Of a DNA stretch of 64,000 nt, positions 28,562-52,469 are shown piece by piece. Origin of the DNA: an uncultured Burkholderiales bacterium (GTDB lineage: Bacteria > Pseudomonadota > Gammaproteobacteria > Burkholderiales > Burkholderiaceae_C); NCBI GenBank assembly GCA_903822825.1, contig CAIJQQ010000060.1, forward strand, positions 124,001 through 188,000. The letters run 5' to 3'. The notes under the pieces were generated by a model. That model was not told the origin of the DNA, did no database searches, and was given only the letters and a program-made list of their open reading frames with translations. Each line of letters opens with the position of its first letter. The first letter of the stretch is position 1. The position numbers were made by a program, and so were the translations under genes.

Positions 28562-29914
28562 TCATGACAGCAGTGCGCCGACCTTGGGCCAAGTGGCCAC
28601 TTGCCAGAGCGCGTCCACGCTTTGGCGCATGGCCTCAGGCGTGGCACCGCCGCTGAAGGCGGCCAGGCGCAAGGCTTTGTCGGTGATCTCTTGACGCGAA
28701 AGGGTGTTGCCCGGGTCGCCCTTGGGCTCGTCCACGCGGCCGTGCAGCACGCGGCCGTCGGTGGTGGTGACGGTGACTTTGCCGATCCAGCGCTTGGGGT
28801 AGGCGCTGTCCACTTCGGCATCGAGTTGCATCGTGACCTTGTCGCGCAGGGCCTGCGTCTGCTGGCTCAAAAAGTCGCGGTCAAATTCGGTCAGGCCCGC
28901 GTGGCCGTGCTGCGCCACCAGCGCCACCACCGTGCCCATCGAGAACTTGCTCTGGTGCACCGTGGTGGGCTGAACCACCGGGCCCAGCACGTCGATCGCG
29001 CCTTGGTGCACATGGGTCACCACTTGGGCCAGGTCATCGAGCTTCAAGCCATTCGTCTGCATGACGTGCAGCAGCGCATCGGCCGCCGGGTGGGTGTGGC
29101 GGCAGCTGGCGTGGTACTTGAACGAGGTCTCGGCCGTGGCCCAGCGCGTGCCCAGACCGTCCACCAAGCGGCTCGGATCGGCGTCGCTCGACATGCCCAC
29201 AGCCATGCCCTGCGGGCCTTCCAAAATTTCTGCCGCGCCGGTGAAACCGTCTTTGGCCAGGTACGCCGACATGAGGCCCGCTGCTGCGGCGTGCGCGGTG
29301 TGCAGCTGCTTGCTGTCAGCGGCGGTGCGCAAGAACTCCCACAAGCCCGCCGACTGCGTGCCCGCTGAGCCGAGCGCGTGCAGCATCTGCTGTGCGTTCA
29401 GGCCCAACAAGTGGCCCACGGCAGCAGCAGATGCCAAGGTACCTGCGGTGCCGGTGGTGTGGAACACGCGGTAGTGCGAACGCCCCAAAAACTCACCCAC
29501 GCGGATGCCAACTTCGTAGCCCACCACCGAAGCAGCCAACAGCTGCTTGCCGCTCGCGCCCAGGGCTTGGGCCACCGCCACAGCGGGAGGAAACACCACC
29601 GTGGCCGGGTGGAACACCGAGCCGTTGTGCACATCGTCTTGCTCGGCCACATGCGAGGCAGCGGCGTTGGCCATGGCCGCTAAATACGGCGTGGTGCGTG
29701 CGCCGTTGATGATGACTTCGGACGGACCCTCTGCTGGCCCCATGGCCTGCGCAAAGCGGGTGATGGTCTCCACAGGTCGCGTGCCGTGACCGGCCACGGC
29801 CGAGCCGAACCAGTCGACCAGCAGGTCTTCGATCTTGCTTACCACGGGCGCAGGGATGTCCTCGAAGCGCAGCGCGGATGCAAAGGCGGCGAGTTGGGCG
29901 GTGTTGGATGTCAT
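28562..29914 (-). CDS. MmgE/PrpD family protein
   Basis: A 450-residue protein of the family that includes 2-methylcitrate dehydratase and cis-aconitate decarboxylase. The helical N-domain has the active-site segment EQDDVHNGSVFHPATVV. The later FKYHASCRHTHPAADALL is the conserved motif with two histidines of the second domain. Most proteins beside CoA-transferase genes in Burkholderiales have unknown substrates. It is the last gene of the minus-strand block and lies downstream of a class III CoA-transferase, separated by a REP element. Confidence 0.9.
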   Translation of the reverse strand: MTSNTAQLAAFASALRFEDIPAPVVSKIEDLLVDWFGSAVAGHGTRPVETITRFAQAMGPAEGPSEVIINGARTTPYLAAMANAAASHVAEQDDVHNGSVFHPATVVFPPAVAVAQALGASGKQLLAASVVGYEVGIRVGEFLGRSHYRVFHTTGTAGTLASAAAVGHLLGLNAQQMLHALGSAGTQSAGLWEFLRTAADSKQLHTAHAAAAGLMSAYLAKDGFTGAAEILEGPQGMAVGMSSDADPSRLVDGLGTRWATAETSFKYHASCRHTHPAADALLHVMQTNGLKLDDLAQVVTHVHQGAIDVLGPVVQPTTVHQSKFSMGTVVALVAQHGHAGLTEFDRDFLSQQTQALRDKVTMQLDAEVDSAYPKRWIGKVTVTTTDGRVLHGRVDEPKGDPGNTLSRQEITDKALRLAAFSGGATPEAMRQSVDALWQVATWPKVGALLS

Positions 29915-29965
29915 GCGGTCTCCTTGTTGAGGTTCAAGTCTTCTGTCATTTTGTAGATGCAGCGC

Positions 29966-30080
29966 CCTGTGTGGGAGCGGCGTCCTGTGTGGGAGCGGCG
30001 TCCTGTGTGGGAGCGGCGCCCTCGCCGCGATGGGCCTTTAGCAGACCACGACCCCCTCGCCCCGAGGGCGGAGCTGCTAC
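29966..30080 (-). repeat. REP-like element a with three 18-bp tandem units
   Basis: The full element spans about 30007-30080 in minus orientation. It carries a GCGGCG/CGCCGC hairpin, a CCCTCG/CGAGGG hairpin and outer arms GTGGGAGC and a partly matching GAGCTGCTAC. It is preceded by two extra copies of an 18-bp unit (starts 29966, 29984; third at 30002 merges with the element). The same family recurs six more times up to 50.2 kb. Confidence 0.75.
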
Positions 30081-30091
30081 AAATTCACGAT

Positions 30092-31273
30092 TCATATGGC
30101 TTGCGCATCCCGCAGCGCTTGCACCGCCGCATCGTCCAGCCCCAGCTCGCGCAAGATGGCCCCGGTGTGCTCGCCCACGGCGGGCACGGGGTCCATGCGG
30201 TAGTCGTATCGGTTGTTGCGCCCAGGCGGCAGGAGAGCAGGAATGTCCCCAGCGGGCGAAACCACGCTGTGCCACCGTTGGCGCGCCTTGAGCTGCGGGT
30301 GCGCCCAGACGCCTGCCATGTCGTTCATGCGGGCGTTGGCGATTTGTGCCTGGTCCAGCCGTGCTTCGACCTCGGCCGTGCTCATGGTGGCGAACATGCC
30401 CAAGATCAGTTGTTGCAGCTCGGCGCGGTTGGCGTTGCGCAGCGCGTTGGTGCAAAAGCGCGCATCGCTGGCCAAAGCCGCATCGCCCAGCACCACTTCG
30501 CAAAACACTTTCCACTCGCGCTCGTTTTGCAGGCCCAGCATCACGGTGCCGCCGTCGCCCGCCGCAAACGGGCCATAGGGGTAGATGCTGGCGTGCGAGG
30601 CGGCCGTGCGCGGTGGCGGTGCGGCGCCTTCAAAAGCGTAGTAAAGCGGGTAGCCCATCCACTCGCTCAGGGCTTCGAGCATGGACACGTCAATGTGGCT
30701 GCCCTGGCCGGTCTTGCCGCGCAGCAGCAGGGCCGAGAGGATGTTGGTGTAGGCGTACATGCCCGCCGCGATGTCGGCCATCGAGTTGCCCGCCTTGGAC
30801 GGCGCATCGGGCGTGCCGGTGATCGACAACAAACCCGCTTCGCTTTGGATCAAGAGGTCGTAGGCTTTTTTGTCGCGGTAGGGACCGTCTTCGCCATAGC
30901 CCGAGATGTCGCAGACGATCAGCTTCGGGTGCGTCGCATTGAGCGCTTCAAACGACAGGCCCATGCGGGCGGCCGCGCCGGGCGCGAGGTTTTGCACCAG
31001 CACGTCAGCATCTTTGAGCAGCCCGCGCAGCACGGCCATGGCCTCGGGGTTTTTGAGGTCGAGCGTGAGGCTTTCTTTGGAGCGGTTGGTCCACACAAAG
31101 TGCGAGGCCTGGCCGCGCACCCGCGTGTCGTAGGCACGGGCAAAGTCGCCTGAGCCGGGCCGCTCGACCTTGATGACGCGTGCGCCCAAGTCGGCCAGTT
31201 GCCGCGTGCAAAACGGCGCGGCGATCGCGTGTTCGAGTGAGACGACGGTGATGCCGTCCAGGGGTCTGGTCAT
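30092..31273 (-). CDS. CaiB/BaiF class III CoA-transferase
   Basis: A 393-residue family III CoA-transferase. Landmarks are VVSLEHAIAAPFCTRQLADLGA, CDISGYGEDGPY, and catalytic Asp167 in NSMADIAAG. The ATG at 31273 (MTRPLDGITVV) is preferred over one three codons upstream. It stands between an acyl-CoA dehydrogenase and an MmgE/PrpD gene, each separated by a REP element. It probably activates a carboxylic acid using succinyl-CoA or acetyl-CoA; itaconate-, mesaconate- or methylsuccinate-type acids are conceivable from context. Confidence 0.9.
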   Translation of the reverse strand: MTRPLDGITVVSLEHAIAAPFCTRQLADLGARVIKVERPGSGDFARAYDTRVRGQASHFVWTNRSKESLTLDLKNPEAMAVLRGLLKDADVLVQNLAPGAAARMGLSFEALNATHPKLIVCDISGYGEDGPYRDKKAYDLLIQSEAGLLSITGTPDAPSKAGNSMADIAAGMYAYTNILSALLLRGKTGQGSHIDVSMLEALSEWMGYPLYYAFEGAAPPPRTAASHASIYPYGPFAAGDGGTVMLGLQNEREWKVFCEVVLGDAALASDARFCTNALRNANRAELQQLILGMFATMSTAEVEARLDQAQIANARMNDMAGVWAHPQLKARQRWHSVVSPAGDIPALLPPGRNNRYDYRMDPVPAVGEHTGAILRELGLDDAAVQALRDAQAI

Positions 31274-31322
31274 CGTGTGCACCTTAATGGGACGGAGCGA
31301 TGGTTCGTGGTCCGCGGAGGAG

Positions 31323-31400
31323 CCATCGCGGCGGGGGCGCCGCTCCTACAGAGGGGCTGAACGCCCATGGTGGGAGCCCCGCACTCGGGGCGATGGGTGG
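31323..31400. repeat. REP-like element b (permuted)
   Basis: CATCGCGGCGGGGGCGCCGCTCC with its hairpin (31323-31350) is followed by GTGGGAGCCCCGC and CTCGGGGCGATGGG (31369-31400). The order of the two halves is swapped compared with elements c, d, e and g, as if two neighbouring copies had recombined. Confidence 0.7.
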
Positions 31401-31424
31401 CGGTCTGCGAAAGCACGATGAACA

Positions 31425-32585
31425 TCAAAACGAGCGGGGAAGCCCGAGGATGTGCTCGGCCACGTAGCTGAAGATCATGTTGGTCGAGACCGGAGCGACT
31501 TGGTACAAGCGCGTCTCGCGGAACTTGCGCTCAATGTCGTATTCGCAAGCAAAGCCAAAGCCGCCGTGCGTTTGCAGGCAGACGTTGGCCGCTTCCCAGC
31601 TGGCCTTGGCCGCGAGGTACTTGGCCATGTTGGCTTCGGCCCCGGCGTTTTGCATGGCGTCGATTTTTTCGCAGGCCTTCCAGCGCATCAGGTTGGCGGC
31701 TTCCAGCTCGATGAATGCGTCGGCAATCGGGAACTGCACGCCCTGGTTTTGGCCAATGGGGCGGCCAAACACCACGCGGTCTTTGGCGTATTTGGTGGCG
31801 CGGTCGATGAACCAGTAGCCGTCGCCAATGCACTCGGCGGCGATCAGCACGCGCTCAGCGTTCAGGCCGTCAAGCAAGGTTTTGAAGCCCTTGCCCTCTT
31901 CGCCCAGGAGCGCGTCTTCGGGGATTTCGAGGTTGTCAAAAAACAGCTCGTTGGTCTCGTGGTTGACCATGTTCAGGATGGGGCGCACGGTGAGGCCGTT
32001 GCCAATCGCTTGCTTGAGGTCGATCAGGAAACACGACAGACCTTCTGAGCGTTTCTTCACTTGGTCGGCAGGCGTGGTGCGGGCCAACAAAATCATCAGG
32101 TCGCTGTGCTGGATGCGCGAGATCCAGACCTTCTGGCCGTTGATCACCCAACGACCGTCCTTGCGCACGGAGGTGGTTTTGAGCTTGGTGGTGTCCGATC
32201 CCGTGGTGGGCTCGGTCACGCCCATGGACTGGATGCGCAACTCGCCCGTGGCGATCTTGGGCAAGAGCGTGTTTTTCTGCGCGTCAGATCCGCTGCGCAC
32301 GATGGAATTCATCACGTACATCTGGCCGTGGCACGCGCCCGAGTTGCCGCCCGAACGGTTGATCTCTTCCATGATCACCGAGGCCTCGGCCATGGTCAGG
32401 CCCGAGCCGCCGTATTGCTGCGGGATCAGCGCGGCCATCCAACCGGCTTTGGTCAGCGCATCGACAAACGCTTCGGGGTAGGCACGTTTTTCGTCGACCT
32501 TGCGGTGGTACTCGTCAGGGAACTGGGCGCACAGGGCGCGCACGGCGTCGCGGATGTCTTGGTATTGGTCGGGTGCGGTGTGCAT
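31425..32585 (-). CDS. Acyl-CoA dehydrogenase
   Basis: A 386-residue FAD acyl-CoA dehydrogenase. FAD/substrate motifs are MGVTEPTTGSDTTKLKTTSV, VINGQKVWISRI and LQTHGGFGFACEYDIER. The C-terminal catalytic motif is not the usual YEGT but QVAPVSTNMI, seen in a subgroup of proteins whose substrate is unknown; the base may come from another helix. It follows a FAS1-like dehydratase gene 36 bases upstream on the same strand. Confidence 0.9.
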   Translation of the reverse strand: MHTAPDQYQDIRDAVRALCAQFPDEYHRKVDEKRAYPEAFVDALTKAGWMAALIPQQYGGSGLTMAEASVIMEEINRSGGNSGACHGQMYVMNSIVRSGSDAQKNTLLPKIATGELRIQSMGVTEPTTGSDTTKLKTTSVRKDGRWVINGQKVWISRIQHSDLMILLARTTPADQVKKRSEGLSCFLIDLKQAIGNGLTVRPILNMVNHETNELFFDNLEIPEDALLGEEGKGFKTLLDGLNAERVLIAAECIGDGYWFIDRATKYAKDRVVFGRPIGQNQGVQFPIADAFIELEAANLMRWKACEKIDAMQNAGAEANMAKYLAAKASWEAANVCLQTHGGFGFACEYDIERKFRETRLYQVAPVSTNMIFSYVAEHILGLPRSF

Positions 32586-32621
32586 GGTTTTGATTCGGTA
32601 AAAAGTGTCAGGTCAAAAGTT

Positions 32622-33500
32622 TCAGGCCAGCGTGGCTTGCGCTTGCATGGTCAGCCAGCCTTCGTGGTCGCAGGCCCACAGCTCAACCGTCTTGCCATCG
32701 GCAGACGGAAGGCCGTTCAAACGGAAGGGGTGCAGGTCAAAAGTGGGGCGCACGGCACGGAACTGGAACGAGGTCACGCGGGCCTCAGGCATTTGGCGGC
32801 GAACCAGGTCCACCAGCAAGGTCGCGATCAGCGGGCCGTGCACGATGAGGCCGGGGTAGCCTTCTTCTTGCGTGACATAGCTGCGGTCGTAGTGAATGCG
32901 GTGGCCGTTGAAGGTGAGCGCCGAATAGCGAAACAGCGAGACCGGATCGGGCACGAACTCGCGCTGCCAGGGCGCACCCGTCTCGGCCGCGGTGGGAGCA
33001 ACTTCGGGCGTGCCGGGCATTGCTGCTGCGCGGTACACGATGTCGTGCGTTTCGGTCAGGCACAGGCCCTGGGCATTGCTGAAAGCATGCTCGACTTCGA
33101 CAAACAGCAGGTCGCCCGTGCGGCCCGACTTGTGCTTGACCGATGCGATGCGCGATTGCTTTTGTGCAGCGTCGCCCACACGCAACGGGTTGCTTTGCCA
33201 CTGCAGACGGCCGCCAGCCCACATGCGGCGCGGCAGCGGTACGGGTGGCAAAAAGCCCCCGCGCAAGGGGTGGCCGTCGGGCCCGATCTGGCTTTGCCGC
33301 GCCTGCGGCAAGAAGTACAGCCAGTGCCACAGCGGTGGCACCTCGCTGCCAGCGGTTTGGTGGACGTCGTCGCGGTCCAGCAGCGCGCTTTGGCCGCGCA
33401 AGGGGGCGGCGCTGATCTCGTCGGTCAGCGTTTCGCTGCGGCCTTCCCAGCTGCGCAAGTGGGCCACTTGGGCGGCGTCAAGGGTGGTGGGGGTGTTCAT
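32622..33500 (-). CDS. MaoC/FAS1-like dehydratase (mesaconyl/itaconyl-CoA hydratase-like)
   Basis: A 292-residue double-hotdog protein. The N-terminal half is a degenerate FAS1-like dehydratase domain; the C-terminal half has SALTFNGHRIHYDRSYV, a variant of the hydratase-2 motif with a histidine that may act in catalysis, and GYPGLIVHGPLIATLLVDL. The plan matches HTD2-type dehydratases and mesaconyl-C4-CoA or itaconyl-CoA hydratases. The frame is open far upstream through two REP elements, but the ATG at 33500 is the sensible start. Confidence 0.85.
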   Translation of the reverse strand: MNTPTTLDAAQVAHLRSWEGRSETLTDEISAAPLRGQSALLDRDDVHQTAGSEVPPLWHWLYFLPQARQSQIGPDGHPLRGGFLPPVPLPRRMWAGGRLQWQSNPLRVGDAAQKQSRIASVKHKSGRTGDLLFVEVEHAFSNAQGLCLTETHDIVYRAAAMPGTPEVAPTAAETGAPWQREFVPDPVSLFRYSALTFNGHRIHYDRSYVTQEEGYPGLIVHGPLIATLLVDLVRRQMPEARVTSFQFRAVRPTFDLHPFRLNGLPSADGKTVELWACDHEGWLTMQAQATLA

Positions 33501-33595
33501 GGCCGTATCTTCGCTGAGTTCAGGGCCGCCTGAGCCCGATGGGGTCTGTCTTTGCGAAAGCCCGTCTTTGGCGAGCAATAAGGGTGCATGGTTGT

Positions 33596-33667
33596 GTAGG
33601 CGCCCCGCCCTCGGGGCGAAGGCTTGAGGTCTTCGCAAGCCCATCGCGGCGGGGGCGCCGCTCCTAC
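33596..33667 (+). repeat. REP-like element c
   Basis: Three arms: CCCCG/CGGGG, GGCTTG/CAAGCC in the spacer, and GCGGCG/CGCCGC. The outer ends are GTAGG and CCTAC. The spacer arm makes this copy and copy d look like a cruciform with three hairpins. Confidence 0.78.
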
Positions 33668-33703
33668 GGGGGGGTGCCATGACGTGGACAGATGCATCTC
33701 TTT

Positions 33704-33775
33704 GTGGGAGCCCCGCCCTCGGGGCGAAGGCTTGAGGTCTGCGCAAGCCCATCGCGGCGGGGGCGCCGCTCCTGC
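33704..33775 (+). repeat. REP-like element d
   Basis: Near copy of element c, 108 bases further on in the same orientation, with the same three hairpin arms and outer GTGGGAGC/GCTCCTGC. The spacing suggests a local tandem duplication. Confidence 0.78.
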
Positions 33776-33809
33776 AGGGGGATAGAGGGACGCGATCATG
33801 GCTCGGGTT

Positions 33810-35327
33810 TCACAGCTGGCTGTAATGCTCGACCAGCTCGCGCTTGAGCACTTTGCCGCTCAGGGTCATGGGCATCTCGGCCACCAGCGTCACCATCGAA
33901 GGCCGTTTGTAGGGCGACAGGTGTTCATGGGCATGGGCCTTGAGGGCGTCCAGGTCGATTTGCGCACCGGGCTTGGGCTCGATGAAGGCCAGGATGTCTT
34001 CGTTGCCGTCGGCCGTTTTGCGCCCAGCCACCGCCGCACGCTGCACACCGGGCCAGGCCAGAAAAACGGCTTCGACCTCGCCGGGGTACACATTGAAACC
34101 GGAGCGGATGATCATTTCCTTGAGACGCCCCACCACCTGCAACGCGCCGTCGGCGTCTTGTCGGCCCAGGTCGCCGCTGGCGTACCAGCCGCCGGGCTTG
34201 AGGACCTGTGCAGTGATCTCAGGGTCGCGGAAGTAACCGGGCATCAAGCCCACACCGCGCATCCAGATTTCGCCGGTTTCGCCAGCCGGCAAGTCTTGCC
34301 CTTGGGGCCCGATGATGCGCAGCTCGGCCCCTTCGACCAAATAACCGGCGCTGGTGTCATCGCGCCACTCGCCCCGGCGGCACAGGGTCAATGCGCCTGC
34401 GTATTCCGACAGACCGTAACCATGGTGCAAGGGCTGCTTGAAGCGCGCCTCGATGGCTTGTTTGACACTCAGGTCCAGCGGCGCAGCGCCGGTGTACATG
34501 TAACGCAAGTCGGGCGCTGCGGGGTGATCAATGCCCTGGGCATCGAGCCAAGCGAGCAGCCGGGTGAACATGGCGGGCGGGCCTTGCAACTGCGTCATGC
34601 CTTCATGGGCCAGCGCATCAAAAACATCGGCCGCGTCAAATTGGCTGCGCATGAGCAGGCCAGCCCCAGCGTGCAGCGAGGCCATGAGCACGGTGCCCAG
34701 ACCGAAGATGTGCGTCATCGGCAAGTAGGCATACGAACGGTCTGCAGGCACCAATTGGCGCGACTGCGCCGACACCTTGCCGAACTGCAACAAGCCCACG
34801 TGCGTGAGCATCACGCCCTTGGGCTGGCCGGTGGTGCCCGAGGTGAAGATGATGGCGGCCACGCGCTCGGCCAGGTCGCCCGTTTGCGCCGTGGCTTGCG
34901 CATCCGCCAGCGTGCGTTGCAAAGCAGGCAGCACGCTGGCACGGGTGTTGTACTGCGCGGCATGCTGGCGCGCAGCGGGTGACACGCCCACCGTGAAATA
35001 CAACACACGGGCATCGGCCTTGGCGGCAAAGCCTGCCAGCTCAGACGCCGTCATGCGCGCATTGACCCCGCAAGCCCAAGCCCCCACACGGCTGCAAGCC
35101 AGCACCAGCGCCACATGCTCGGGGCAGTTTTCTGCGGCCACCAGCACGCGGTCGCCCACACGCACACCGGTTTCGCGCAACTCGGCTTCAAGTGCGTCCA
35201 CTTGCTGCGCCAACTCTTGCATGGTCATCACCCTGTCTGGCATGAAGAGAAAGGGGTGGTTCGGCGCCTGCTGGACGCGCTCGTCAAACAGCTGATGGAT
35301 TCGGGTGTGTGGGGACGTGTGAAACAT
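33810..35327 (-). CDS. Acyl-CoA ligase (AMP-binding, class I)
   Basis: A 505-residue adenylate-forming enzyme activating a carboxylic acid with ATP and CoA. Motifs are IIFTSGTTGQPKGVMLTH (A3 phosphate loop), YGLSEYAG (A5), and WYASGDLGRQDADGAL. GRLKEMIIRSGFNVYPGEVE follows (A8), then a catalytic lysine near GKVLKREL at the end. It starts 3 bases after the stop of the Bug receptor gene, so the receptor and ligase may be one unit for import and activation. The acid is not predictable. Confidence 0.92.
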   Translation of the reverse strand: MFHTSPHTRIHQLFDERVQQAPNHPFLFMPDRVMTMQELAQQVDALEAELRETGVRVGDRVLVAAENCPEHVALVLACSRVGAWACGVNARMTASELAGFAAKADARVLYFTVGVSPAARQHAAQYNTRASVLPALQRTLADAQATAQTGDLAERVAAIIFTSGTTGQPKGVMLTHVGLLQFGKVSAQSRQLVPADRSYAYLPMTHIFGLGTVLMASLHAGAGLLMRSQFDAADVFDALAHEGMTQLQGPPAMFTRLLAWLDAQGIDHPAAPDLRYMYTGAAPLDLSVKQAIEARFKQPLHHGYGLSEYAGALTLCRRGEWRDDTSAGYLVEGAELRIIGPQGQDLPAGETGEIWMRGVGLMPGYFRDPEITAQVLKPGGWYASGDLGRQDADGALQVVGRLKEMIIRSGFNVYPGEVEAVFLAWPGVQRAAVAGRKTADGNEDILAFIEPKPGAQIDLDALKAHAHEHLSPYKRPSMVTLVAEMPMTLSGKVLKRELVEHYSQL

Positions 35328-35330
35328 GTT

Positions 35331-36320
35331 TTATTCGAACGCCATGCCCTTGGTCACTTCGGCCCACAGCGCGTGCTCGCGGCGCATGCGCTCGGCCAAA
35401 TCTGCAGGTTTGGCGTTCCAGATGACATAGCCTTGGTCGATCCAGCGCTTGCGCAAGTCGGCGTCTTGCAAAGTGCGGCCCGTGGCAGCGGCGATGCGTT
35501 GGCTCGCCTCAGCACTCATGCCCAACGGGCCGTACAGGCCATACCAACCGCCGATGTCGTAGTCGCGGATGCCCAGCTCGGACATGCTCGGCAACTGGGG
35601 CAACGCCGGGTTGCGTTCTTTGGACGTCACCGCCAGCGGGCGCACCTTGCCGCCGTCGATGTAGGACTTCGCACCGCCAACGATGTCAAACATCATCTGG
35701 ATCTGCCCACCCATCACATCGGTCATGGCCGGGGCGTTGCCTTTGTAGGGCACATGGGTCATGGTGATGCCCGCACGGCGCGCGAACAGCTCGCCGCTCA
35801 GGTGGTTGGACGCGCCCATGCCCGCCGAGCCATAGGCCAGCTGACCGGGGTTGGCCTTGGCATGCGCCACCAGCTCGGACAGGGTCTTGAAGGGTTGGTT
35901 TTGGTTGATCACAAGCACATTGGCGTAACTCAAAATGGGCGCCAGCGGCGTCAGGTCCTTGAGCGGATCAAAAGCCATGGCTTTGAGCACATGCGGGCTG
36001 ATGGTCATGGTGGGGCTGGCCGCGAAATAAATCTCCTGGCCATTAGGAGCAGCTTTGACCACGCTGTTGCCCGCGACCGCACCGCCTGCGCCCAAGCGGT
36101 TTTCCACAATCACTGGCTGGCCCAGCTCACGGCTGAACACGGGGGCGAACACGCGCGCGGCCGAGTCCACCGGGCCGCCTGCGGCGTAACCCACGATGAG
36201 TTTGACGGTGGGGCCTGTGCTCTGGCTCTGAGCCCAAGCAGCACCGCCCAGTCCAGTCATGGCTGCGCACAATGCACTCACCAGACCCCGGCGGGCAAGA
36301 AGATGTTTCAAAGGGCTCAT
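35331..36320 (-). CDS. Bug family periplasmic solute receptor
   Basis: A 329-residue TctC-like receptor with a signal peptide ending at GGAAWAQ. Motifs are VKLIVGYAAGGPVDSAARVF and IVENRLGAGGAVAGNSV. It lies directly upstream of an acyl-CoA ligase, which suggests that the ligand is a carboxylic acid later activated to its CoA ester. An unusual 23-codon frame precedes it at 36355-36426. Confidence 0.9.
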   Translation of the reverse strand: MSPLKHLLARRGLVSALCAAMTGLGGAAWAQSQSTGPTVKLIVGYAAGGPVDSAARVFAPVFSRELGQPVIVENRLGAGGAVAGNSVVKAAPNGQEIYFAASPTMTISPHVLKAMAFDPLKDLTPLAPILSYANVLVINQNQPFKTLSELVAHAKANPGQLAYGSAGMGASNHLSGELFARRAGITMTHVPYKGNAPAMTDVMGGQIQMMFDIVGGAKSYIDGGKVRPLAVTSKERNPALPQLPSMSELGIRDYDIGGWYGLYGPLGMSAEASQRIAAATGRTLQDADLRKRWIDQGYVIWNAKPADLAERMRREHALWAEVTKGMAFE

Positions 36321-36354
36321 GGGGTGTCTCCTGTTGTGGTTGGAATCATGTTCT

Positions 36355-36426
36355 TCAGCGGCTCAAGCCCAGCAACTTGGCAAACGCCACTTTGTCGTAC
36401 AAGGTGGAAGTGTCGATCTCGCTCAT
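36355..36426 (-). CDS. Possible 23-residue small protein
   Basis: A short frame encoding 23 residues that starts MSEIDTSTLYDKVAFAK and ends in LLGLSR. It has a good Shine-Dalgarno, AGGAAGA on the minus strand 4 to 5 bases before its ATG, overlapping the stop codon of the nitronate monooxygenase gene, so translation could be coupled. The sequence fits no family I know. It may be a small protein, a leader peptide of the Bug gene (35 bases further on), or the remnant of a longer gene. Confidence 0.4.
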   Translation of the reverse strand: MSEIDTSTLYDKVAFAKLLGLSR

Positions 36427-36436
36427 CCGGTCTTCC

Positions 36437-38390
<1,954 letters not shown>

Positions 38391-42443: not shown

Positions 42444-42449
42444 AACACC

Positions 42450-44053: not shown

Positions 44054-44089
44054 GGGGTCTCCTGCTGGAAAAAGTGGCATGTTTTATCT

Positions 44090-44162
44090 GTAGGAGCGGC
44101 GCCCCCGCCGCGATGGGGCATCCGCCAACCACCACCCATCGCCCCGGGGGCGGGGCTCCTGC
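44090..44162 (-). repeat. REP-like element f
   Basis: Element of the same family in opposite orientation: GTAGGAGCGGCG first, then CGGGGCTCCTGC. Inner hairpins GCGGCG/CGCCGC-type and CCCCG/CGGGG-type are both present. It lies between the acyl-CoA ligase and the SDR, downstream of the ligase. Confidence 0.78.
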
Positions 44163-44174
44163 ATGAATGACGGG

Positions 44175-45889
44175 TCATGGGATCACCTGCGGGGTGGACA
44201 CGGCCAGACGCGCGTGTTCTTGTTCTTGCAATTGCCGCCACAGGATCTTGCCCGTGCCCGACTTGGGCAGCACGTCCACGAAGCGCACGGTGCGCGGGGT
44301 TTTATAAACGGCCATGTGCTCGCGGCTCCAGTCGATGACGTCTTGCTCGGTGACTTGGCCTTTGAAGGCAGGCTTGAGCACCAGGAGGGCCATCACGTTT
44401 TCGCCGCGCTGGGTGTCGGGCACGGCGATGACGCAGGCCTCGTGGACCGCCGGGTGTTCGTAGAGCGTGTTTTCCACTTCAGCGGGCCAGACCTTGAAGC
44501 CCGAGACGTTGACCATGCGCTTGAGGCGGTCGCGCATGAAGAAGTAACCCTCTTCGTCCACGCTGGCCAGGTCGCCCGTGCGGAAAAAGGTTTGGCCACC
44601 GAGCTCAAAAAATGAGGTCTGGTTGGCGCTCTCGTTTTGCCAGTAGCCGCGCATCAGTTGCGGGCCGCGCGTGACCAACTCGCCCACTTCGCCCACGGGC
44701 AACTCGCGCAGGGTTTCCGGGTCCACGATGCGCGCGTCCACACCGGGGGTGATGACGCCCAAGCACTGGCGCTTGCCGCGTGCCGGTGGGTTGCCCAGCA
44801 AAAAGGAGGCGGTCTCGGTCATGCCGTAGGCTTCGTTGTAGGCGATGCCAAAACGCGTTTGCAGCAAGTTCGCCACCGTCTCGGGCATGGCGGCACCGCC
44901 GCCCGACAGGGTGGACAAGCTGCTCAGGTCGCGCTGCGCAGCAGCCGGGTTGGCAAAGAAGTCGATCAGCATGGCCGGTGGGGCCGACCAGGTCGTGACG
45001 CGGTGGTGCTCGATCAGGCGCGCCGCTGAGGCCGCATGCCAGCGCGGCAGCATGACCACCGTGGCGCCCAGCGTGATCGGCACGTTCAGGCCGCCCTGCA
45101 TGCCCAGCATGTGAAAGAGCGGCGCGACGGCCAGAAACACCGAGTCCATGTGCAGGCCGCGCCAGACCTGCGAGGACATGTTGGAGGCCAACACCGTGGC
45201 GTGGGTGTGCATGCAGCCCTTGGGGTGACCGGTGGTGCCCGAGGTGTAGGGCAGCACACACAGGTCATGGCTGCCCGGGTGCTCTGCGGGTGCGGGCAAG
45301 GCTTGTGCAATGGCGTCTTCAAGCCCGTGCAGGCCCGGGGCCTCAGTCCACTGGCGCGGGGCGAACACCACATCCGGCACCGCATCCGGCACTTCGTCGC
45401 TGACGGGCTGCGCGGGCAGGCCTTCTGAATACGCATGCACCAACACGGCTTGCAAAGCACCACCATCGCCCGGCTGCAGCAGCGGCATGACCTGGGGCAA
45501 CAACTCTTGCGCCACCATGGCCACGCGTGCGCCGCTGTCTTGCATGTAGTAGCGGATTTCGCTGGGCGTGCACATGGCGTTGACCGGCACCACCACCGCA
45601 CCGGCGCGCATGATGCCGTAGTAGGCCGCCACGTATTGCGGGCAGTTCTGGCTCATCAGCAAAACCCGGTCACCGCGCTGCACACCCAGCCGCTGGGTGA
45701 GGTAACCGGCCAGCGCCTCCACGCGTGCGAGCAGCGCCGCGTAGGTCAGCGTGCTGCCGCAAAAAATCACGGCAGGCTTGTTCGGAAAGCGCTCGGCCGC
45801 GACCTGCACGTAATGCGTGAGCGGCACCTGCGGCAAGCTCAGCGTGCGCGGAACGCCTTTGGGCCAGAAGGGTGTGGACGATGGGCTCA

Positions 45890-45890
<1 letters not shown>
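44175..45890 (-). CDS. Long-chain-type acyl-CoA ligase (AMP-binding)
   Basis: A 571-residue adenylate-forming acyl-CoA synthetase. Motifs are VLPYTSGTTGHPKGCMHTHA, NEAYGMTETASFLL, FFRTGDLASVDEEGYF, DRLKRMVNVSGFKVWPAEVE, and a C-terminal PKSGTGKILWRQL that holds the catalytic lysine. The ATG at 45890 lies one base into the TGA of the upstream dehydrogenase gene, so the two are translationally coupled. It is likely the entry ligase of the operon running from 49992 to 44175. Confidence 0.92.
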
Positions 45891-47041
<1,151 letters not shown>

Positions 47042-47048
47042 ATGCGCC

Positions 47049-47876
47049 TCAGGGACGGCCGCCGCCGCAAACCAGCACCTGGCCGCTGACATAGTTGGAT
47101 TCGGGAATGCAAAACATGTAGACCGCGCCTGCGGCTTCTTCGGGTGTGCCGCCCCGGCCCAGCGGGATGGTGGATTCGGCGGCCTTCAAGCGATCAGGCT
47201 GCACGCCGACGGCGATGGTGCGGCCCTGAATCTCCACGCTGGCGTCACCTGCCGTCAGGGGTTGTGTCAGGCGCGTCATGATCAGGCCAAAGGCCACGCT
47301 GTTGACGTTGACCTTGTAGCGGCCCCACTCTTTGGCCATGGCCTTGGTCAATCCGTTGATGCCGGCCTTGGCCGCCGCGTAGTTCGCTTGGCCTGCGTTG
47401 CCGTACACGCCCGAGGTGGACGAGATGTTGACCACCTTGCGGTGCTTGGATATGCCCGCTTCGGCCTCTTTTTTGGCCGCGTCGCGGATGAAGTTAGACG
47501 CTGCGCGCAAGATGCGAAACGGTGCCGTCATGTGCACGGCCAGCATGGCATCCCACTGCTCGTCGCTCATTTTTTGCAGCACGTTGTCCCAGGTGTAACC
47601 GGCGTTGTTGACGATGATGTCGATGCCGCCAAAGTTGTCTAGCGCGGCCCGGACAAAACGTTCGCCAAAGTCGGTGTCGGTCACACTGCCAATGCAGGCC
47701 ACGGCCTGGCCACCGCTGGCGATGATGTCGGCCACGGTCTGCTCGGCTGGGGCTTGGTCGAGGTCGTTGATGACGACGCGGGCGCCTTCGCTGGCGAGCT
47801 TGAGCGCGATTTCACGGCCGATGCCGCGACCGGAGCCTGACACCAGGGCCACCTGGCCTTCGAGTTTGCGGGTCAT
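47049..47876 (-). CDS. SDR family oxidoreductase (3-hydroxyacyl-CoA/ACP dehydrogenase-like)
   Basis: A 275-residue SDR with the NAD(P) motif LVSGSGRGIGREIALKLA, NNAGYTWDNVLQKM, and active-site ISSTSGVYGNAGQANYAAAKAG. It resembles FabG/17beta-HSD8-type enzymes. The NAG-x-T-W-D-N-x-L-x-K-M pattern resembles D-bifunctional-type dehydrogenase domains. In this operon it would oxidise the 3-hydroxyacyl-CoA produced by the MaoC pair upstream (35 bases). Confidence 0.88.
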   Translation of the reverse strand: MTRKLEGQVALVSGSGRGIGREIALKLASEGARVVINDLDQAPAEQTVADIIASGGQAVACIGSVTDTDFGERFVRAALDNFGGIDIIVNNAGYTWDNVLQKMSDEQWDAMLAVHMTAPFRILRAASNFIRDAAKKEAEAGISKHRKVVNISSTSGVYGNAGQANYAAAKAGINGLTKAMAKEWGRYKVNVNSVAFGLIMTRLTQPLTAGDASVEIQGRTIAVGVQPDRLKAAESTIPLGRGGTPEEAAGAVYMFCIPESNYVSGQVLVCGGGRP

Positions 47877-47911: not shown

Positions 47912-48331
47912 TCAGGCCAGTGCGATGACGGCGTCGCCGGTCAGCTTGACCTGGCCTTCGGCGTTGGCGGTGGTGAGCGACAGGCGCACGCGGCGCTCGC
48001 CATCGACTTCAAACTTTTCGGTCACTTGGCCGGTGCAGGTGATCTTTTCGTGCACCTGGGTCATGGCGGCAAAGCGCACGCTGTAGTCGCGAATGGCCGT
48101 TTGCGGCACCCAGTTGGTGAGCAGGCGGGCCAGCCAGCCCATGGACAACATGCCGTGCGCGATCACGTCGGGCAAGCCCGCGATGGCAGCAAAGTCGGTG
48201 TCGACGTGGATCGGGTTGTGGTCGCCCGAAGCGCCGCAGTACAGCGCCAGCGTGAGGCGCGAGACGGGTGGCAGCTCCAGCGCAGGAATGGTGTCGCCCA
48301 CTTGCAGGGCATCAAAAGAGGGGAGTGTCAT
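47912..48331 (-). CDS. MaoC family (R)-hydratase, catalytic half
   Basis: A 139-residue single-hotdog protein with a complete hydratase-2 motif YCGASGDHNPIHVD (residues 31-44), in which Asp37 and His42 are the expected catalytic pair. IAHGMLSMGWLARLL follows. It is 10 bases downstream of a second hotdog gene that lacks these residues. The two probably form a heterodimer that hydrates 2-enoyl-CoAs to (R)-3-hydroxyacyl-CoAs. Confidence 0.88.
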   Translation of the reverse strand: MTLPSFDALQVGDTIPALELPPVSRLTLALYCGASGDHNPIHVDTDFAAIAGLPDVIAHGMLSMGWLARLLTNWVPQTAIRDYSVRFAAMTQVHEKITCTGQVTEKFEVDGERRVRLSLTTANAEGQVKLTGDAVIALA

Positions 48332-48341: not shown

Positions 48342-48785
48342 TTATCCGTGGCGCAAAACGGTCACGGCGCGCAAGTCGGCCACATGCTCGCCACGCTGGT
48401 TGCTCACGCGGGTTTTGCGCAACACGAATTCGAGTGCACCGCCTTTTTTGTCATAGATGTCTTCGATGCGCTGTTCAAAACGCAGCACATCGCCCGCATA
48501 AGCCATGCGGTGAAATGTGAAGCCCTGCTCGCCGTGCAGCAGCTTGCGGTAGTCCATGCCCAGCAGGTTGCGGATCGCGGCCGGGTCGGGCGACTCCATC
48601 TCAAGGCAAAACAAAAACGTGGGCGGCACAGGCAAGGCCGGGTGCCCGGCGGCGCGGGCGGCGGCTTCGTCGGTGTAGACCGGGTCGGTCTGCCCCGTGG
48701 CCTTGGCAAAAAAGCGCAAGCGGCCTTTTTCGACCAAGACCTTGAAGGCGGGCATGGTGTGGCCGATGAATTGGCGGTCGATCAT
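48342..48785 (-). CDS. MaoC-like / FAS1-type dehydratase, non-catalytic partner
   Basis: A 147-residue hotdog protein of the FAS1-like dehydratase N-terminal class. At the motif position it reads FAKATGQTDPVYTDEAAA, retaining the fold but not the Asp/His pair. In heteromeric hydratases such as ChsH1/ChsH2 one subunit is degenerate in the same way. The ATG at 48785 is 13 bases after the thiolase stop; the longer open frame lies over that gene and is rejected. Confidence 0.85.
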   Translation of the reverse strand: MIDRQFIGHTMPAFKVLVEKGRLRFFAKATGQTDPVYTDEAAARAAGHPALPVPPTFLFCLEMESPDPAAIRNLLGMDYRKLLHGEQGFTFHRMAYAGDVLRFEQRIEDIYDKKGGALEFVLRKTRVSNQRGEHVADLRAVTVLRHG

Positions 48786-48798: not shown

Positions 48799-49992
48799 TC
48801 AGACTTTTTGGTACAGCGTGACCACGCAAGCACCGCCCAAGCCCAGGTTGTGCTGCAGTGCCAAACGTGCGCCTTCGACCTGGCGCTGATCGGCCTTGCC
48901 GCGCAACTGCGAGACCAGCTCGTAGCACTGCGCCAGCCCGGTGGCCCCCAGCGGGTGGCCCTTGGACAGCAGGCCGCCAGAGGGGTTGGTGACGATGCGC
49001 CCGCCATAGGTGTTGTCGCCGTCGACGATGAACTTTTCGGCGGTGCCTTCGGGCGTGAGGCCCAGGCCTTCGTAGGTGATGAGTTCATTGGCCGTGAAGC
49101 AGTCGTGCAGCTCGACCACGTCGAGGTCTTCGGGGCCGATGCCTGCGGCTTCGTACACTTGGCTTGCCGCGTTGGCCGTCATGTCGTAGCCCACCACGCG
49201 GCGCATGTCGTCGCTGTCAAAGGTGCTGGGGGTGTCGGTGGTCATGGCCTGCGCAGCGATGACCACGCTGGCGTCGAGCTTGTGCTTTTTGGCAAAGTCG
49301 GCCGAGCAGACGATGGCGGCAGCTGCGCCGCAGGTGGGTGGGCAGCACTGGTAGCGCGTGAGCGGGCCAAACACGGTGGGCGAAGCCATCACCTCTTCGA
49401 GCGTGAGCGTCTGGCGGAACACGGCCAGCGGGTTGCGCGCCGCGTGCTGGCGCGCCTTGACCGAGATGCGGCCAAAGGTGTCGGCGCGGATGCCGTATTC
49501 CAACATGTAGTCCATGCCCGCACCGCCAAAGAACTGCGCAGCACGTGGCGCGGCCGGGTCAAACCCTTGGTGCGCGGTCATGGCCTCGGCAAAGCGGGTC
49601 ATGGGCGATGGGCGATCGTCATACGCGCCTTTGAGGGCGCCGGGCACCATCTGCTCAAAGCCCAGCGCGATGGCGCATTCGACCATGCCGCTCTCGACCG
49701 CTTGTCGCGCCAGGAACAGCGCGCTCGAGCCGGTAGAACAGTTGTTGTTGAGGTTGAAGACCGGGATGCCGGTCAGGCCCACGCCGTAGATGGCGGCCTG
49801 CCCGGCGGTGGAGTCGCCATAAACGTAGCCCACATAGGCCTGCTGCACGGCGTCGTAGGGCACGCCCGCGTCGTCGAGCGCCAGCTTGGCCGCACGCGCA
49901 CCCATGAGGTTGTAGGACTCGCTGGCCCCGGGTTTGGTGAAGGGGATCATGCCCACGCCGACGACGTGAACAGCGCGCTTGCTCACGGCCAT
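48799..49992 (-). CDS. SCP-x-type thiolase
   Basis: A 397-residue thiolase of the sterol carrier protein x type. The nucleophile is Cys85 in NLNNNCSTGSSAL; CFTANELITYEGLGL and GHPLGATGLAQCYELV follow. The C-terminal HNLGLGGACVVTLY replaces the CxG motif of ordinary thiolases, as in animal SCPx, which cleaves branched 3-oxoacyl-CoAs. It is the first gene of the operon running down to the ligase at 44175, and a probable operator lies 80-100 bases upstream. Confidence 0.9.
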   Translation of the reverse strand: MAVSKRAVHVVGVGMIPFTKPGASESYNLMGARAAKLALDDAGVPYDAVQQAYVGYVYGDSTAGQAAIYGVGLTGIPVFNLNNNCSTGSSALFLARQAVESGMVECAIALGFEQMVPGALKGAYDDRPSPMTRFAEAMTAHQGFDPAAPRAAQFFGGAGMDYMLEYGIRADTFGRISVKARQHAARNPLAVFRQTLTLEEVMASPTVFGPLTRYQCCPPTCGAAAAIVCSADFAKKHKLDASVVIAAQAMTTDTPSTFDSDDMRRVVGYDMTANAASQVYEAAGIGPEDLDVVELHDCFTANELITYEGLGLTPEGTAEKFIVDGDNTYGGRIVTNPSGGLLSKGHPLGATGLAQCYELVSQLRGKADQRQVEGARLALQHNLGLGGACVVTLYQKV

Positions 49993-50189: not shown

Positions 50190-50200
50190 AAGAAAAACGC

Positions 50201-51265
50201 TCAAGCCAGCGCTTCGTCCACCGCCGGTTCGTTGTGCGCCTGGCGGTAGGCGCCGGGGGTCAAGCCCGTCCAGGCCTTGAAGGCGCGGTGGAAGGTGCTG
50301 GCTTCTGAAAAGCCCACGCGGGCGGCCACTTCCAATAGCGGCAAATCGGACTGAGTGAGGAACTCGACGGCCACGTCGCGGCGCAGGGCGTCTTTGATCA
50401 TTTGGTAGCCCTGGCCTTCGCGCTGCAGGCGGCGGCGCAGGGTCTGGGGCGTGGTGGCCAGCATGTCGCTGACGGCTTCGAGTGAGGGCATTTCTTCGGC
50501 CAGGTAGCGGCGCAGCATGCGGCGGATGCGTTCGGTCAGGCTGGCTTGGTCGCGGTACTTGACCAGCAGGCAGGCCGGGGCCTGGTGCAAAAACGCTTCC
50601 ACGCTTTCGGTGTTTTGCACCACGGGCAGGTCAAGCCATTTGGCATCAAAGCGGTAGCCCCATTCACCCGCCATCAGGTGGATGGGCGCCTGAAACAGTT
50701 TGGACGCATCGCTGCGGCGGGCCACTTCGCTGTCTTGGTAGACGACTTCATCCACCGGGATGCGCCGCGCCGCCAGCCAGCACAAGACGCCATAGCTGAG
50801 GAACATGAAGACCCGCACGGCATAGGCCTGGCGGTCGTTCAGGGCGTGGCGCGGACTCATGCGCAGATACGCCACGCCGCCGCTGACCACCAGGCGCGGC
50901 ACAAAGTCGGGCAGCAGCGCGTGGTAGTAACGCAGCCCGGCGCGCAGGGCGTCGCCCAGTTTTCGGTGGCCCACCAGCATGCGGCAGCCCATGGCAAACG
51001 AGCCCAGAGGCAGCGCTGTGGTGCTCAGGCCCCAGAACTCGTCGCGGTGGTGGCGCACCAGCGCCGTCATCAGGCGGGCAAATTGCGTCTGGGTGACGCG
51101 CGCCAGCTTGGATTCGAGCATCGCAGGCAGGATGCCCGCACGGCGCAGCACGGTGGCACGCTGGTCTTCGTCCTCGATGGCCATGAGCATCTGCACCACT
51201 TGGTAAGCCGCGATGGTGTGCTGAATGCTGTGTTGGGTGGGCGTGGCGTTGGGGGGGCGGTTCAT
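50201..51265 (-). CDS. AraC-family regulator with arabinose-binding-like N-domain (OruR/ArgR type)
   Basis: A 354-residue regulator. The long N-terminal domain (residues about 20-220) is the Arabinose_bd type found in ArgR/OruR of Pseudomonas, and the C-terminal AraC HTH has AVSDMLATTPQTLRRRLQREG and LEVAARVGFSEASTFHRAFKAWTG. The ATG at 51265 is preferred over a TTG at 51280. It sits between the racemase gene and the thiolase operon, both preceded by the same motif, and is probably their activator. Confidence 0.88.
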   Translation of the reverse strand: MNRPPNATPTQHSIQHTIAAYQVVQMLMAIEDEDQRATVLRRAGILPAMLESKLARVTQTQFARLMTALVRHHRDEFWGLSTTALPLGSFAMGCRMLVGHRKLGDALRAGLRYYHALLPDFVPRLVVSGGVAYLRMSPRHALNDRQAYAVRVFMFLSYGVLCWLAARRIPVDEVVYQDSEVARRSDASKLFQAPIHLMAGEWGYRFDAKWLDLPVVQNTESVEAFLHQAPACLLVKYRDQASLTERIRRMLRRYLAEEMPSLEAVSDMLATTPQTLRRRLQREGQGYQMIKDALRRDVAVEFLTQSDLPLLEVAARVGFSEASTFHRAFKAWTGLTPGAYRQAHNEPAVDEALA

Positions 51266-51290
51266 GGCTCGGTCGGTCAAGACAGTGCCT

Positions 51291-52469
51291 CTATCCTACG
51301 ACTTTGCGTTGGCACAAAACATCAATCTCGGCGTCATCGAGTCCCGCAGCGGTCAGCAGCTCGCGGGTGTGCTGGCCCTGCTGGGGCGCGGGGCGCTGCA
51401 CTTCAAAACGGTAGCCGCTCATCTGCACGGGCATGGCCATTTGTGTCATGGTCTCGCCCTGCGCGGTCTGCACCTGCACCCACATGCCCCGGTCCTGAAA
51501 GTGCGGTAGCTGTTGCGCCTCGTCGAGCTTGAGCACAGGAGTCACGCAGCAGTCGGCACCTGCCAGGACCTGCGACCAGTGGGCCAGCGAGTGGGCCTGC
51601 ACGGCCTGAGCCACTTCGCGCCGCACCCAGTCGTTCAAGGCCTGCGTTTTGGGGATGTGGTGCTCGGCCAAATCCGGGCGACCCAGCAGGGTGCAAAAGG
51701 TGTCCCAGAACTTGTGCTCGAAAGCGCCCACGGCCAGGTAGCGGCCGTCTTGCGTGGGGTACAGGCCATAGCAGGGCAGCGCCCCGGTGAGCTTGTCGCC
51801 ACCGGGCGCGGGCACGCGGCCCCGGCTGTGCAGGCCAGCGAGCGGGATGACCGCGTGGGCCAGCACGCCGTCGGCAATGGCCACGTCCACATGGCGCCCT
51901 TGGCCGGTGCGCTGCGCGTCAAACAACGCGGCCAAGATGCCCGTGACGGCGGGCATGGTGCCGCCGAGCAAGTCGCCCAAGGGCAGGTTGGACAGGGCCA
52001 GCTCGCCAGCGGGCGTGCCCACTTGGTCGGCCACGCCGGCATAGCCGCAGTAGTTCAGATCGTGCCCGGCCTTTTGGCTCAGCGGCCCGGTCTGGCCGTA
52101 GCCGCTGATGCTGCAGTACACCAGGCGCGGGTTGCGTGCACACACCTCGTCGTAACCCAAACCCAGCCGCGCCATCACGCCGGGGCGAAAGCCTTCAACC
52201 AGCACGTCGGCGGTTTCGCACAGCTTGAGCAAAAGCTGCACGCCTTCGGGGTGCTTCAGGTCCAGGCGCATGCCGCGTTTGTTGCGGTTGAGCATTTCGC
52301 GCACCGCAGGCGATGCGTAGTCGCCAGCGCCCAAGTCTTCGATCTTGATGACGTCGGCGCCAAGGTCAGCCAAGTGCAAAGTGCACATGGGGCCGGGCAG
52401 CAGGCGGGTGAGGTCGAGCACGCGCACGCCTTGCAGCGGTGGGCGGTTCAAGCCGGAATTCAAATGCAT
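51291..52469 (-). CDS. Alpha-methylacyl-CoA racemase (CaiB/BaiF family)
   Basis: A 392-residue CoA-transferase-family enzyme that carries racemase landmarks: AGHDLNYCGYAG with His136, and GDLLGGTMPAVTGILAALF with Asp166; in AMACR/Mcr these two residues act as the acid-base pair. The N-terminus LQGVRVLDLTRLLPGPMCTLHLADLGADVIKIE is also typical. AMACR inverts the methyl-bearing carbon of 2-methyl-branched acyl-CoAs so that they can be oxidised. The ATG at 52469 with GGAG upstream is chosen. It is the first gene of the minus-strand acyl-CoA block. Confidence 0.88.
   Translation of the reverse strand: MHLNSGLNRPPLQGVRVLDLTRLLPGPMCTLHLADLGADVIKIEDLGAGDYASPAVREMLNRNKRGMRLDLKHPEGVQLLLKLCETADVLVEGFRPGVMARLGLGYDEVCARNPRLVYCSISGYGQTGPLSQKAGHDLNYCGYAGVADQVGTPAGELALSNLPLGDLLGGTMPAVTGILAALFDAQRTGQGRHVDVAIADGVLAHAVIPLAGLHSRGRVPAPGGDKLTGALPCYGLYPTQDGRYLAVGAFEHKFWDTFCTLLGRPDLAEHHIPKTQALNDWVRREVAQAVQAHSLAHWSQVLAGADCCVTPVLKLDEAQQLPHFQDRGMWVQVQTAQGETMTQMAMPVQMSGYRFEVQRPAPQQGQHTRELLTAAGLDDAEIDVLCQRKVVG

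Follow-up and report, generated by a model that had tools for sequence, protein, structure and literature searches.

The window analysed here, a 64,000-nucleotide stretch of DNA from an uncultured Burkholderiales bacterium, is part of contig 60 of a 2.92 Mb genome (66 contigs, 89.1% complete) and carries, between positions 28562 and 52469, a close series of 21 minus-strand genes encoding a homologue of alpha-methylacyl-CoA racemase (AMACR), an SCPx-type thiolase and further enzymes of acyl-CoA metabolism. Since the nearest named relatives of one product, a fusion of DUF35 with a thiolase-fold protein, were found by homologue search in Limnohabitans and other Comamonadaceae records (90–96% identity), the genome is regarded as Limnohabitans-like. 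An initial annotation of this DNA had described a 24-kb one-strand block with three acyl-CoA dehydrogenases and two acyl-CoA ligases. This description was borne out, as the dehydrogenases were located at 45890, 38436 and 31425 and the ligases at 44175 and 33810, while the ten of the long plus-strand open reading frames (ORFs) inside the block that were scanned gave no Pfam match at E ≤ 0.001. Genes for an AraC-family regulator, a crotonase, a FabG-like short-chain dehydrogenase/reductase (SDR), two TctC proteins, an NMO/FabK-like flavoprotein, a third MaoC protein and an MmgE/PrpD protein can now be added to that description.

In the order of transcription, the first gene (51291–52469) encodes a predicted AMACR/MCR-type 2-methylacyl-CoA racemase with a CoA_transf_3 domain and is followed after 10 bp by that of the AraC-family regulator (50201–51280; Arabinose_bd and HTH_18), which in many relatives separates AMACR from SCPx. 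The SCPx-type (SCP2-thiolase type 1) 3-oxoacyl-CoA thiolase (48799–49992) is 397 aa long and consists of thiolase domains only, a C-terminal SCP2 domain not being found in it. This protein scores 687.5 bits against the NCBIfam model PRK08256 'lipid-transfer protein' (cut-off 436), has an SCP2-thiolase type 1 as its closest structure (6hsj, 455 bits) and possesses the nucleophilic Cys85, HDCF at 296, the GHP His346 and, at 381, the HNLGLGG motif by which it was initially recognised. The MaoC hydratase pair, also reported in the initial annotation, comprises MaoC1 (48342–48785, from the observed ATG), with a FAS1_DH_region match and a weak match (28.1 bits) to the N-terminal part of MFE-2 hydratase-2, and the HadB-like MaoC2 (47912–48331, under cut-off). 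These are followed by the FabG-like SDR (47049–47876), a candidate 3R-hydroxyacyl-CoA dehydrogenase with an intact YAAAK motif, the acyl-CoA dehydrogenase ACAD1 (45890–47092) and the AMP-forming acyl-CoA ligase FadD1 (44175–45893; PRK08314, long-chain type, over cut-off). A DECR2-like SDR (43262–44080; PRK07576 over cut-off), for which the top structural match is the peroxisomal 2,4-dienoyl-CoA reductase 4fc6 and in which Val occupies the Tyr position of YxxxK, and a crotonase-fold enoyl-CoA hydratase/isomerase (42450–43265) complete the first part of the block.

The second part begins with an SDR (41244–42164) with an intact YSAAK motif and 2et6, 1gz6 (17beta-HSD4) and 1zbq as its top structural matches, such that the resemblance of two SDRs to 17beta-HSD4 and to a DECR2 with a replaced tyrosine, as initially proposed, is supported by the closest structures. 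It is succeeded by the DUF35-thiolase-fold fusion (39621–41234), ACAD2 (38436–39602), a TctC (Bug) substrate-binding protein (37419–38432), the NMO/FabK-like flavoprotein (36437–37411), which is closest to Pseudomonas aeruginosa PA1024 (433 bits), a second TctC (Bug) protein (35331–36320) and the AMP-forming acyl-CoA ligase FadD2 (33810–35327). The MaoC-type hydratase MaoC3 (32622–33752) matches just two structures, 8huc and 8khg, of which the latter is named itaconyl-CoA hydratase. Its frame begins inside two 89-nt direct repeats (33585–33781), resulting in a repeated peptide, and the real start is probably located near 33500. The block ends with ACAD3 (31425–32585), the class III CoA-transferase CaiB2 (30092–31282) and an MmgE/PrpD family protein (28562–29914) that is not a PrpD equivalog. 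The three dehydrogenases and the crotonase were assigned by family matches, one of the dehydrogenases showing a weak match to ACOX_C_alpha1. A scan of positions 28000–47000 returned no promoter-like site where 1.9 were expected, and 21 terminator-like sites against 18.1 expected, which is uninformative.

The best solved relatives of the racemase are AMACR/MCR (MCR, 221.8 bits), ahead of the probable racemase FAR (187), SUGCT (185), formyl-CoA transferases (135–161) and CaiB (approximately 82 bits), and the catalytic pair of AMACR is present, exactly where the initial annotation had placed it, as H136 (in GHDLNY) and D166. A tree of 36 proteins was constructed, which included MCR, 20 hand-chosen AMACR homologues (four of 16 matches from the genus, seven of 18 from the order and nine of 23 from genomes holding the gene module described below), Escherichia coli YfdE, Frc and CaiB, and nine members of the family from the same genome (eight loci and CaiB2, with 12 others in the genome; the window's gene at 12514–13734 was entered twice). 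The racemase was positioned in a 22-row clade with MCR and the 20 homologues (support 96/91), apart from YfdE, Frc, CaiB and the own-genome members, and therefore outside the transferase grouping that the initial annotation had named as evidence against its reading. The catalytic His is found in all 22 rows of the racemase side and in none of the 14 other rows, including the nine own-genome members. MCR, the sole reference racemase in the tree, is a partial sequence on a long branch, and CaiB likewise has a long branch, for which reason the exact joins appear less sure than the His/Asp pattern. A subclade of 15 rows (100/99), all from genomes with SCPx or the module, excludes six homologues in whose fetched neighbourhoods SCPx is lacking. 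These findings point to an AMACR/MCR-type 2-methylacyl-CoA racemase as the product of the first gene. CaiB2, the second protein of the block with a CoA_transf_3 domain, is of the transferase type and not a racemase, being placed on the transferase side (Frc/SUGCT) and having YD in place of HD; 4ed9, SUGCT and a formyl-CoA transferase match it at 214–220 bits and MCR at 69 bits.

Conservation was assessed in 80 loci for which the fusion served as the query, drawn from among the matches listed and taken with 10-kb flanks; the 16 closest were set aside to leave 64. The order SCPx-MaoC1-MaoC2-FabG-ACAD1-FadD1-(DECR2)-crotonase-SDR-fusion-ACAD2 recurs in the 80-locus set, with single genes lost or moved, and was observed in Simplicispira, Curvibacter, Polaromonas, Rhodoferax, Ramlibacter, Variovorax, Methylibium and Alcanivorax limicola. 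At least four of the six genes of module A, the part of the block led by AMACR and SCPx, are held by 28 of the 64 loci. AMACR is encoded in 23 of these 28 genomes, in every case at E ≤ 1e-130, and is positioned within 11 kb of SCPx in 18 (three inside the loci as first taken and 15 from a wider look, one of these on the opposite strand). Three of the 28 belong to the genus or have Limnohabitans in their titles (L032, the same genome as G042; L042, which is G008 by coordinates; and L045), and when these are omitted the corresponding figures are 22 of 25 and 17 of 25. For comparison, a search of 250 genomes of the order gave an AMACR match at E ≤ 1e-110 in at least 20, two of which belong to the genus; the figure is a lower bound given that at most seven candidates were scored per genome.

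A second set, centred on SCPx and chosen without the fusion, comprised seven other-genus genomes of the family, including, as L128, the Methylibium genome that also supplied L075. Their fetched stretches contain the MaoC pair in all seven cases, AraC in five, AMACR in three and the fusion in four, plus one weak 41% piece. On a Variovorax plasmid (L130) AMACR starts 6.6 kb before SCPx, while a Cupriavidus plasmid locus holds only SCPx and FabG of the module, plus a distant ligase and TctC. In a sample of 60 genomes of the genus, AMACR was detected in 16, SCPx in 17 and both in 14; the fusion was detected in 24, of which 16 have SCPx. Among the 14 genomes with both genes, AMACR and SCPx are within 6 kb in 12, 13 kb apart on the same strand in one and on different contigs in one, the two genes thereby sharing contig and strand in 13. 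The notion that AMACR linkage is confined to Limnohabitans, suggested by an AMACR-centred search of the order, was dropped once SCPx- and module-centred searches had placed AMACR next to the module in further genera and had shown that the 10-kb flanks around the fusion left AMACR out. On the evidence of gene order the unit is real and conserved, its arrangement being more than chance since it recurs in other genera, and the recurrence in other Comamonadaceae that the initial annotation had proposed to look for is observed with AMACR attached. No description of this unit was found in the open-licence literature within the terms searched.

The linkage is not uniform along the block. The 28.5–33.7 kb end is, by its distribution, a more loosely linked module: within the 10-kb flanks of the 64 relatives, same-strand copies of MaoC3, ACAD3, CaiB2 and MmgE were counted in 8, 15, 8 and 13 loci, respectively, and copies on either strand in 8, 18, 11 and 17. 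The single block initially described is thus upheld as a recurring unit but not in respect of its last four genes. The NMO-like flavoprotein, present within these flanks in 12 of the 16 close loci as against four of the 64 others, may be a lineage-specific addition. The close loci L011, L016, L019 and L021 are missing SCPx, FabG, ACAD1, FadD1 and the DECR2-like SDR and have kept the MaoC pair, crotonase, SDR, fusion and ACAD2; L017 has a short SCPx remnant before MaoC1, and L015 a single open frame (7713–8813) from AraC into the crotonase, as though SCPx to DECR2 had been deleted. The losses in L011, L015–L017, L019 and L021 may share one event. As a separate observation, two records titled Akkermansia muciniphila (L019) and Hymenobacter (L050) probably contain misbinned Comamonadaceae contigs, the identity to the fusion of the block being 91% and 79%, respectively.

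Such patterns, together with gaps of 208, 285 and up to approximately 300 bp between parts, could be taken to mean that the block is two or three unrelated tandem operons, namely (A) AMACR-SCPx to crotonase, (B) the MFE-2-like SDR, fusion and ACAD2, and (C) MaoC3 to MmgE, particularly as B occurs without A in several relatives and C is often absent. We consider this unlikely, as many genera have A, the MFE-2-like SDR, the fusion and ACAD2 in one uninterrupted run, and as AMACR has the genes of C for neighbours in Ramlibacter sp. WS9 (L161) and some of them in Alcanivorax limicola (L175). Furthermore, the gaps need not be operon borders because they hold a genome-wide repeat. This palindromic, REP-like (repetitive extragenic palindromic) element, with the core GAGCCCCGCCCTCGGGGCGA, is present in intergenic gaps at 30057, 31372, 33598, 33706, 42369, 44139 and 50118 of the window (seven matches at up to three mismatches against 0.00 expected), and its core has 84 matches genome-wide at up to two mismatches against none for the reversed control.

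Concerning the fusion, residues 14–110 match the DUF35 zinc-ribbon (ChsH2) and OB domains, and the remainder is an Ltp2/Sal-like protein of the thiolase fold. The closest structure to this part is 4u4e (366 bits), a 'thiolase' whose role is not stated, followed by 9myr (202) and 6ok1 (186). The latter two are the structures of CtSal-DUF35 and Ltp2-DUF35, and Sal is reported to use Tyr302 and Cys304 and Ltp2 to use Tyr294 and Tyr344, the Cys304Ala substitution having abolished Sal activity (PMC12329534). In a tree with 12 of the 80 homologues, the fusion groups with Sal and Ltp2 and apart from two SCP2-thiolases (100/100); the Sal and Ltp2 branches are long and the inner order is unresolved. 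In all 80 loci the stretch of the Cys nucleophile reads TM[LIV]GGSSF, the nucleophilic Cys being absent, YDAF replaces the HDCF motif and the HPG His is retained. The fusion keeps the Tyr of YDxx (Tyr433), and has Ala435 at Sal's Cys and His483 at the column of Ltp2 Tyr344/Sal Gln352. As the second catalytic residue of neither Sal (the Cys of YDCY) nor Ltp2 (Tyr344) was found in it, the protein was filed as aldolase-like and not as Sal or Ltp2. Its candidacy as an ordinary thiolase was rejected in view of the Cys missing in 80 of 80 loci and the grouping with Ltp2 and Sal, such that the initial designation as a DUF35-thiolase fusion applies to the fusion and the fold and not to the role. Judged by motif and kinship, it more probably works in the manner of an aldolase, with Tyr and His as its pair of residues. 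DUF35 and the thiolase-fold part form a single frame in 33 of the 80 loci and are separate in 47, according to a crude length test.

This kinship raises the possibility that the block acts on a steroid or bile-acid side chain, with AMACR and SCPx serving the side chain, the DUF35-aldolase a C22/C17 hydroxy ester, and ring genes located elsewhere. The grouping with Ltp2 and Sal is in keeping with such a role, as is the reported joining of steroid side-chain aldolases to their hydratases by DUF35 domains (PMC12329534). We nevertheless judge it improbable, since the fusion is far closer to 4u4e than to either Sal or Ltp2, is devoid of Sal's Cys and of the second Tyr of Ltp2, and is encoded in an 89%-complete genome in which KshA, the sole ring-degradation marker searched, was not over its cut-off (best 22.8 bits, cut-off 23.3). 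The latter result agrees with the initial statement that a steroid nucleus pathway was without support.

An isoprenoid substrate is suggested by a convergent neighbour cluster on the plus strand (4920–13734), which encodes a carboxyltransferase, an acyl-CoA dehydrogenase, an enoyl-CoA hydratase, a biotin carboxylase, AtuA and a class III CoA-transferase, and thereby holds together the carboxyltransferase, biotin carboxylase and AtuA of an acyclic terpene/leucine-type carboxylase route. None of the scanned proteins of this cluster reaches an NCBIfam cut-off, the gamma-carboxygeranoyl-CoA hydratase model scoring 165.5 bits against its hydratase (cut-off 426). Atu enzymes degrade acyclic terpenes, and omega-oxidised isoprenoids yield 2-methyl acids. 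In seven of the 24 genomes of the genus with the fusion, AtuA shares the contig of the fusion gene and lies 15–31 kb past it in convergent orientation, and the AtuA/biotin-carboxylase cluster tilts the substrate toward isoprenoids. In addition, mutation of mcr in a rubber degrader is reported to have abolished growth on polyisoprene and on methyl-branched isoprenoids (PMC8538451, citing Arenskoetter 2008).

On this basis we propose, with a probability of roughly 0.5, that the block is a catabolic unit for alpha-methyl-branched, most probably isoprenoid-derived, acyl chains, working like the peroxisomal branched-chain pathway; the isoprenoids may have their origin in plants or algae. In terms of predicted activities, stereochemistry and order of steps, a ligase would make the CoA ester and AMACR would invert the 2-methyl centre to give a substrate for an (S)-specific acyl-CoA dehydrogenase. 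The MaoC pair would then hydrate the product to a (3R)-hydroxyacyl-CoA, which the FabG- or MFE-2-like SDR would oxidise, and the SCPx thiolase would release propionyl-CoA. The DECR2-like reductase and the crotonase would handle double bonds pre-existing in the chain, while the DUF35-fused protein would provide a second, retro-aldol-type C–C cleavage where thiolysis is impossible. The substrate is the weakest part of this reading: the AMACR-SCPx unit fits the initial inference that an isoprenoid, sterol or other 2-methyl-branched acid is degraded, but the sequence does not decide among them.

It is conceivable, with a minor though appreciable likelihood, that the AMACR/SCPx set acts instead on the side chain of another 2-methyl or 2-aryl acid (arylpropionic, cyclic or naphthenic), given that AMACR and SCPx-type enzymes are not specific to isoprenoids and that ibuprofen clusters include an SCPx-type gene. 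No ring-hydroxylating dioxygenase was present among the window ORFs scanned (a part of the total), and a DECR2-like reductase and an MFE-2-like SDR are better suited to an aliphatic unsaturated chain. A biosynthetic branched-lipid or polyketide-like route was also weighed, since the SDR and the MaoC pair show similarity to FabG- and HadA/HadB-like models, with all scores under the cut-offs. With three acyl-CoA dehydrogenases, two CoA ligases and an SCP2-type thiolase in the block, and neither a ketosynthase nor a carrier protein among its scanned genes, such a route is highly improbable.

Several observations weigh against the proposed reading. Five of the 28 module genomes have no AMACR match at the threshold, and in five more the gene is remote (18 kb and approximately 49 kb away on the same contig in one genome each, and on other contigs in three, one of which is a 4-kb fragment). 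AMACR homologues of other Burkholderiales (50–56% identity) are near SCPx in just one of 18 cases (L108, on the opposite strand), from which it follows that an AMACR of the general kind is no proof of the module. As regards the aldolase role, NCBIfam files the fusion family as an acetyl-CoA acetyltransferase (PRK06158, 673.6 bits, cut-off 421), and an SDR able to supply a 3-oxoacyl substrate for a true thiolase adjoins the fusion gene. The convergent AtuA linkage was not seen in the assemblies of 17 of the 24 fusion genomes, and, with AtuA so widespread in the genus (53 of the 60 genomes sampled), its mere presence says little. PhyH gave no match in the 89%-complete genome, for which reason phytanate alpha-oxidation was set aside as a route, and the two TctC receptors hint at the uptake of polar carboxylates.

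A more specific form of the isoprenoid proposal, which we put forward as speculative and rather unlikely, is a complete, carboxylation-free route for chains of regular isoprenoids, in which AMACR-SCPx would thiolyse alpha-methyl units and the fusion would represent a third kind of aldolase with the thiolase fold (Tyr433 as base, His483 as acid, no Cys). Fed by the MaoC pair, it would cleave a tertiary 3-hydroxy-3-methylacyl-CoA and so deal with beta-methyl branches without the Atu carboxylase. The loss of SCPx with retention of the MaoC pair and fusion in some Limnohabitans loci fits a hydratase-aldolase pair of this kind.

To our knowledge, the bacterial genes for methyl-branched acids, such as chlorophyll side chains and isoprenoid alkanes, are poorly mapped. 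If the proposed function is correct, the block would represent a defined, linked gene set for such acids in freshwater Limnohabitans and Variovorax-type bacteria, in which the logic of the peroxisomal branched-chain pathway is assembled as one unit, and would point to an aldolase-like active site (Tyr and His) distinct from those of Sal and Ltp2. What is new here is the linkage of these genes into one unit, together with the unusual fusion of DUF35.

Elsewhere in the window, phosphonate-metabolism genes are located at 2696–3984 (PhnN, which scores over its cut-off, and a putative phosphonate protein that falls slightly short of its own), and two adjoining proteins with histidine-kinase ATPase and receiver domains are encoded at 58731–63994, beside a LuxR-type regulator and an amidase.

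In comparison with known systems, the neighbour cluster resembles the Atu/Liu carboxylase route in its carboxyltransferase, biotin carboxylase, AtuA, hydratase and dehydrogenase, but is separate from and convergent to the block, with all of its scanned proteins scoring under NCBIfam cut-offs. The racemase is of the same family as Mycobacterium tuberculosis MCR and has the same His/Asp pair, whereas its gene, in contrast to those of MCR and of the Mcr of the rubber degrader, which we take to be a Gordonia, is linked to an AraC regulator and an SCPx module. The fusion shares with Sal and Ltp2 the thiolase fold family, the loss of the Cys nucleophile, the Tyr of YDxx and a DUF35 partner, and differs from them in its YDAF motif, in the His at the Ltp2 Tyr344/Sal Gln352 position and in the fusion of DUF35 to the thiolase-fold chain (in the 33 loci mentioned above, by the same crude test) and not to a MaoC hydratase. 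Peroxisomal branched-chain beta-oxidation employs AMACR, the D-bifunctional protein/MFE-2, SCPx and DECR2, and the block unites in one gene run homologues of AMACR, of the SDR and hydratase-2 parts of MFE-2, of the SCPx thiolase and of DECR2. The peroxisome-like character initially proposed is thus supported by the closest structures (MCR, SCP2-thiolase, MFE-2/17beta-HSD4 and DECR2) and requires qualification in that acyl-CoA dehydrogenases take the place of oxidases, no acyl-CoA oxidase being found among the genes of the block. The MFE-2 parts are, moreover, separate genes, SCPx is without an SCP2 domain, and a DUF35-aldolase-like protein, a CoA-transferase and an MmgE/PrpD protein are added. 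As far as its gene content indicates, the block would work like peroxisomal branched-chain beta-oxidation without being a strict member of that class, from which the oxidase, the SCP2 domain and the fused MFE-2 set it apart.

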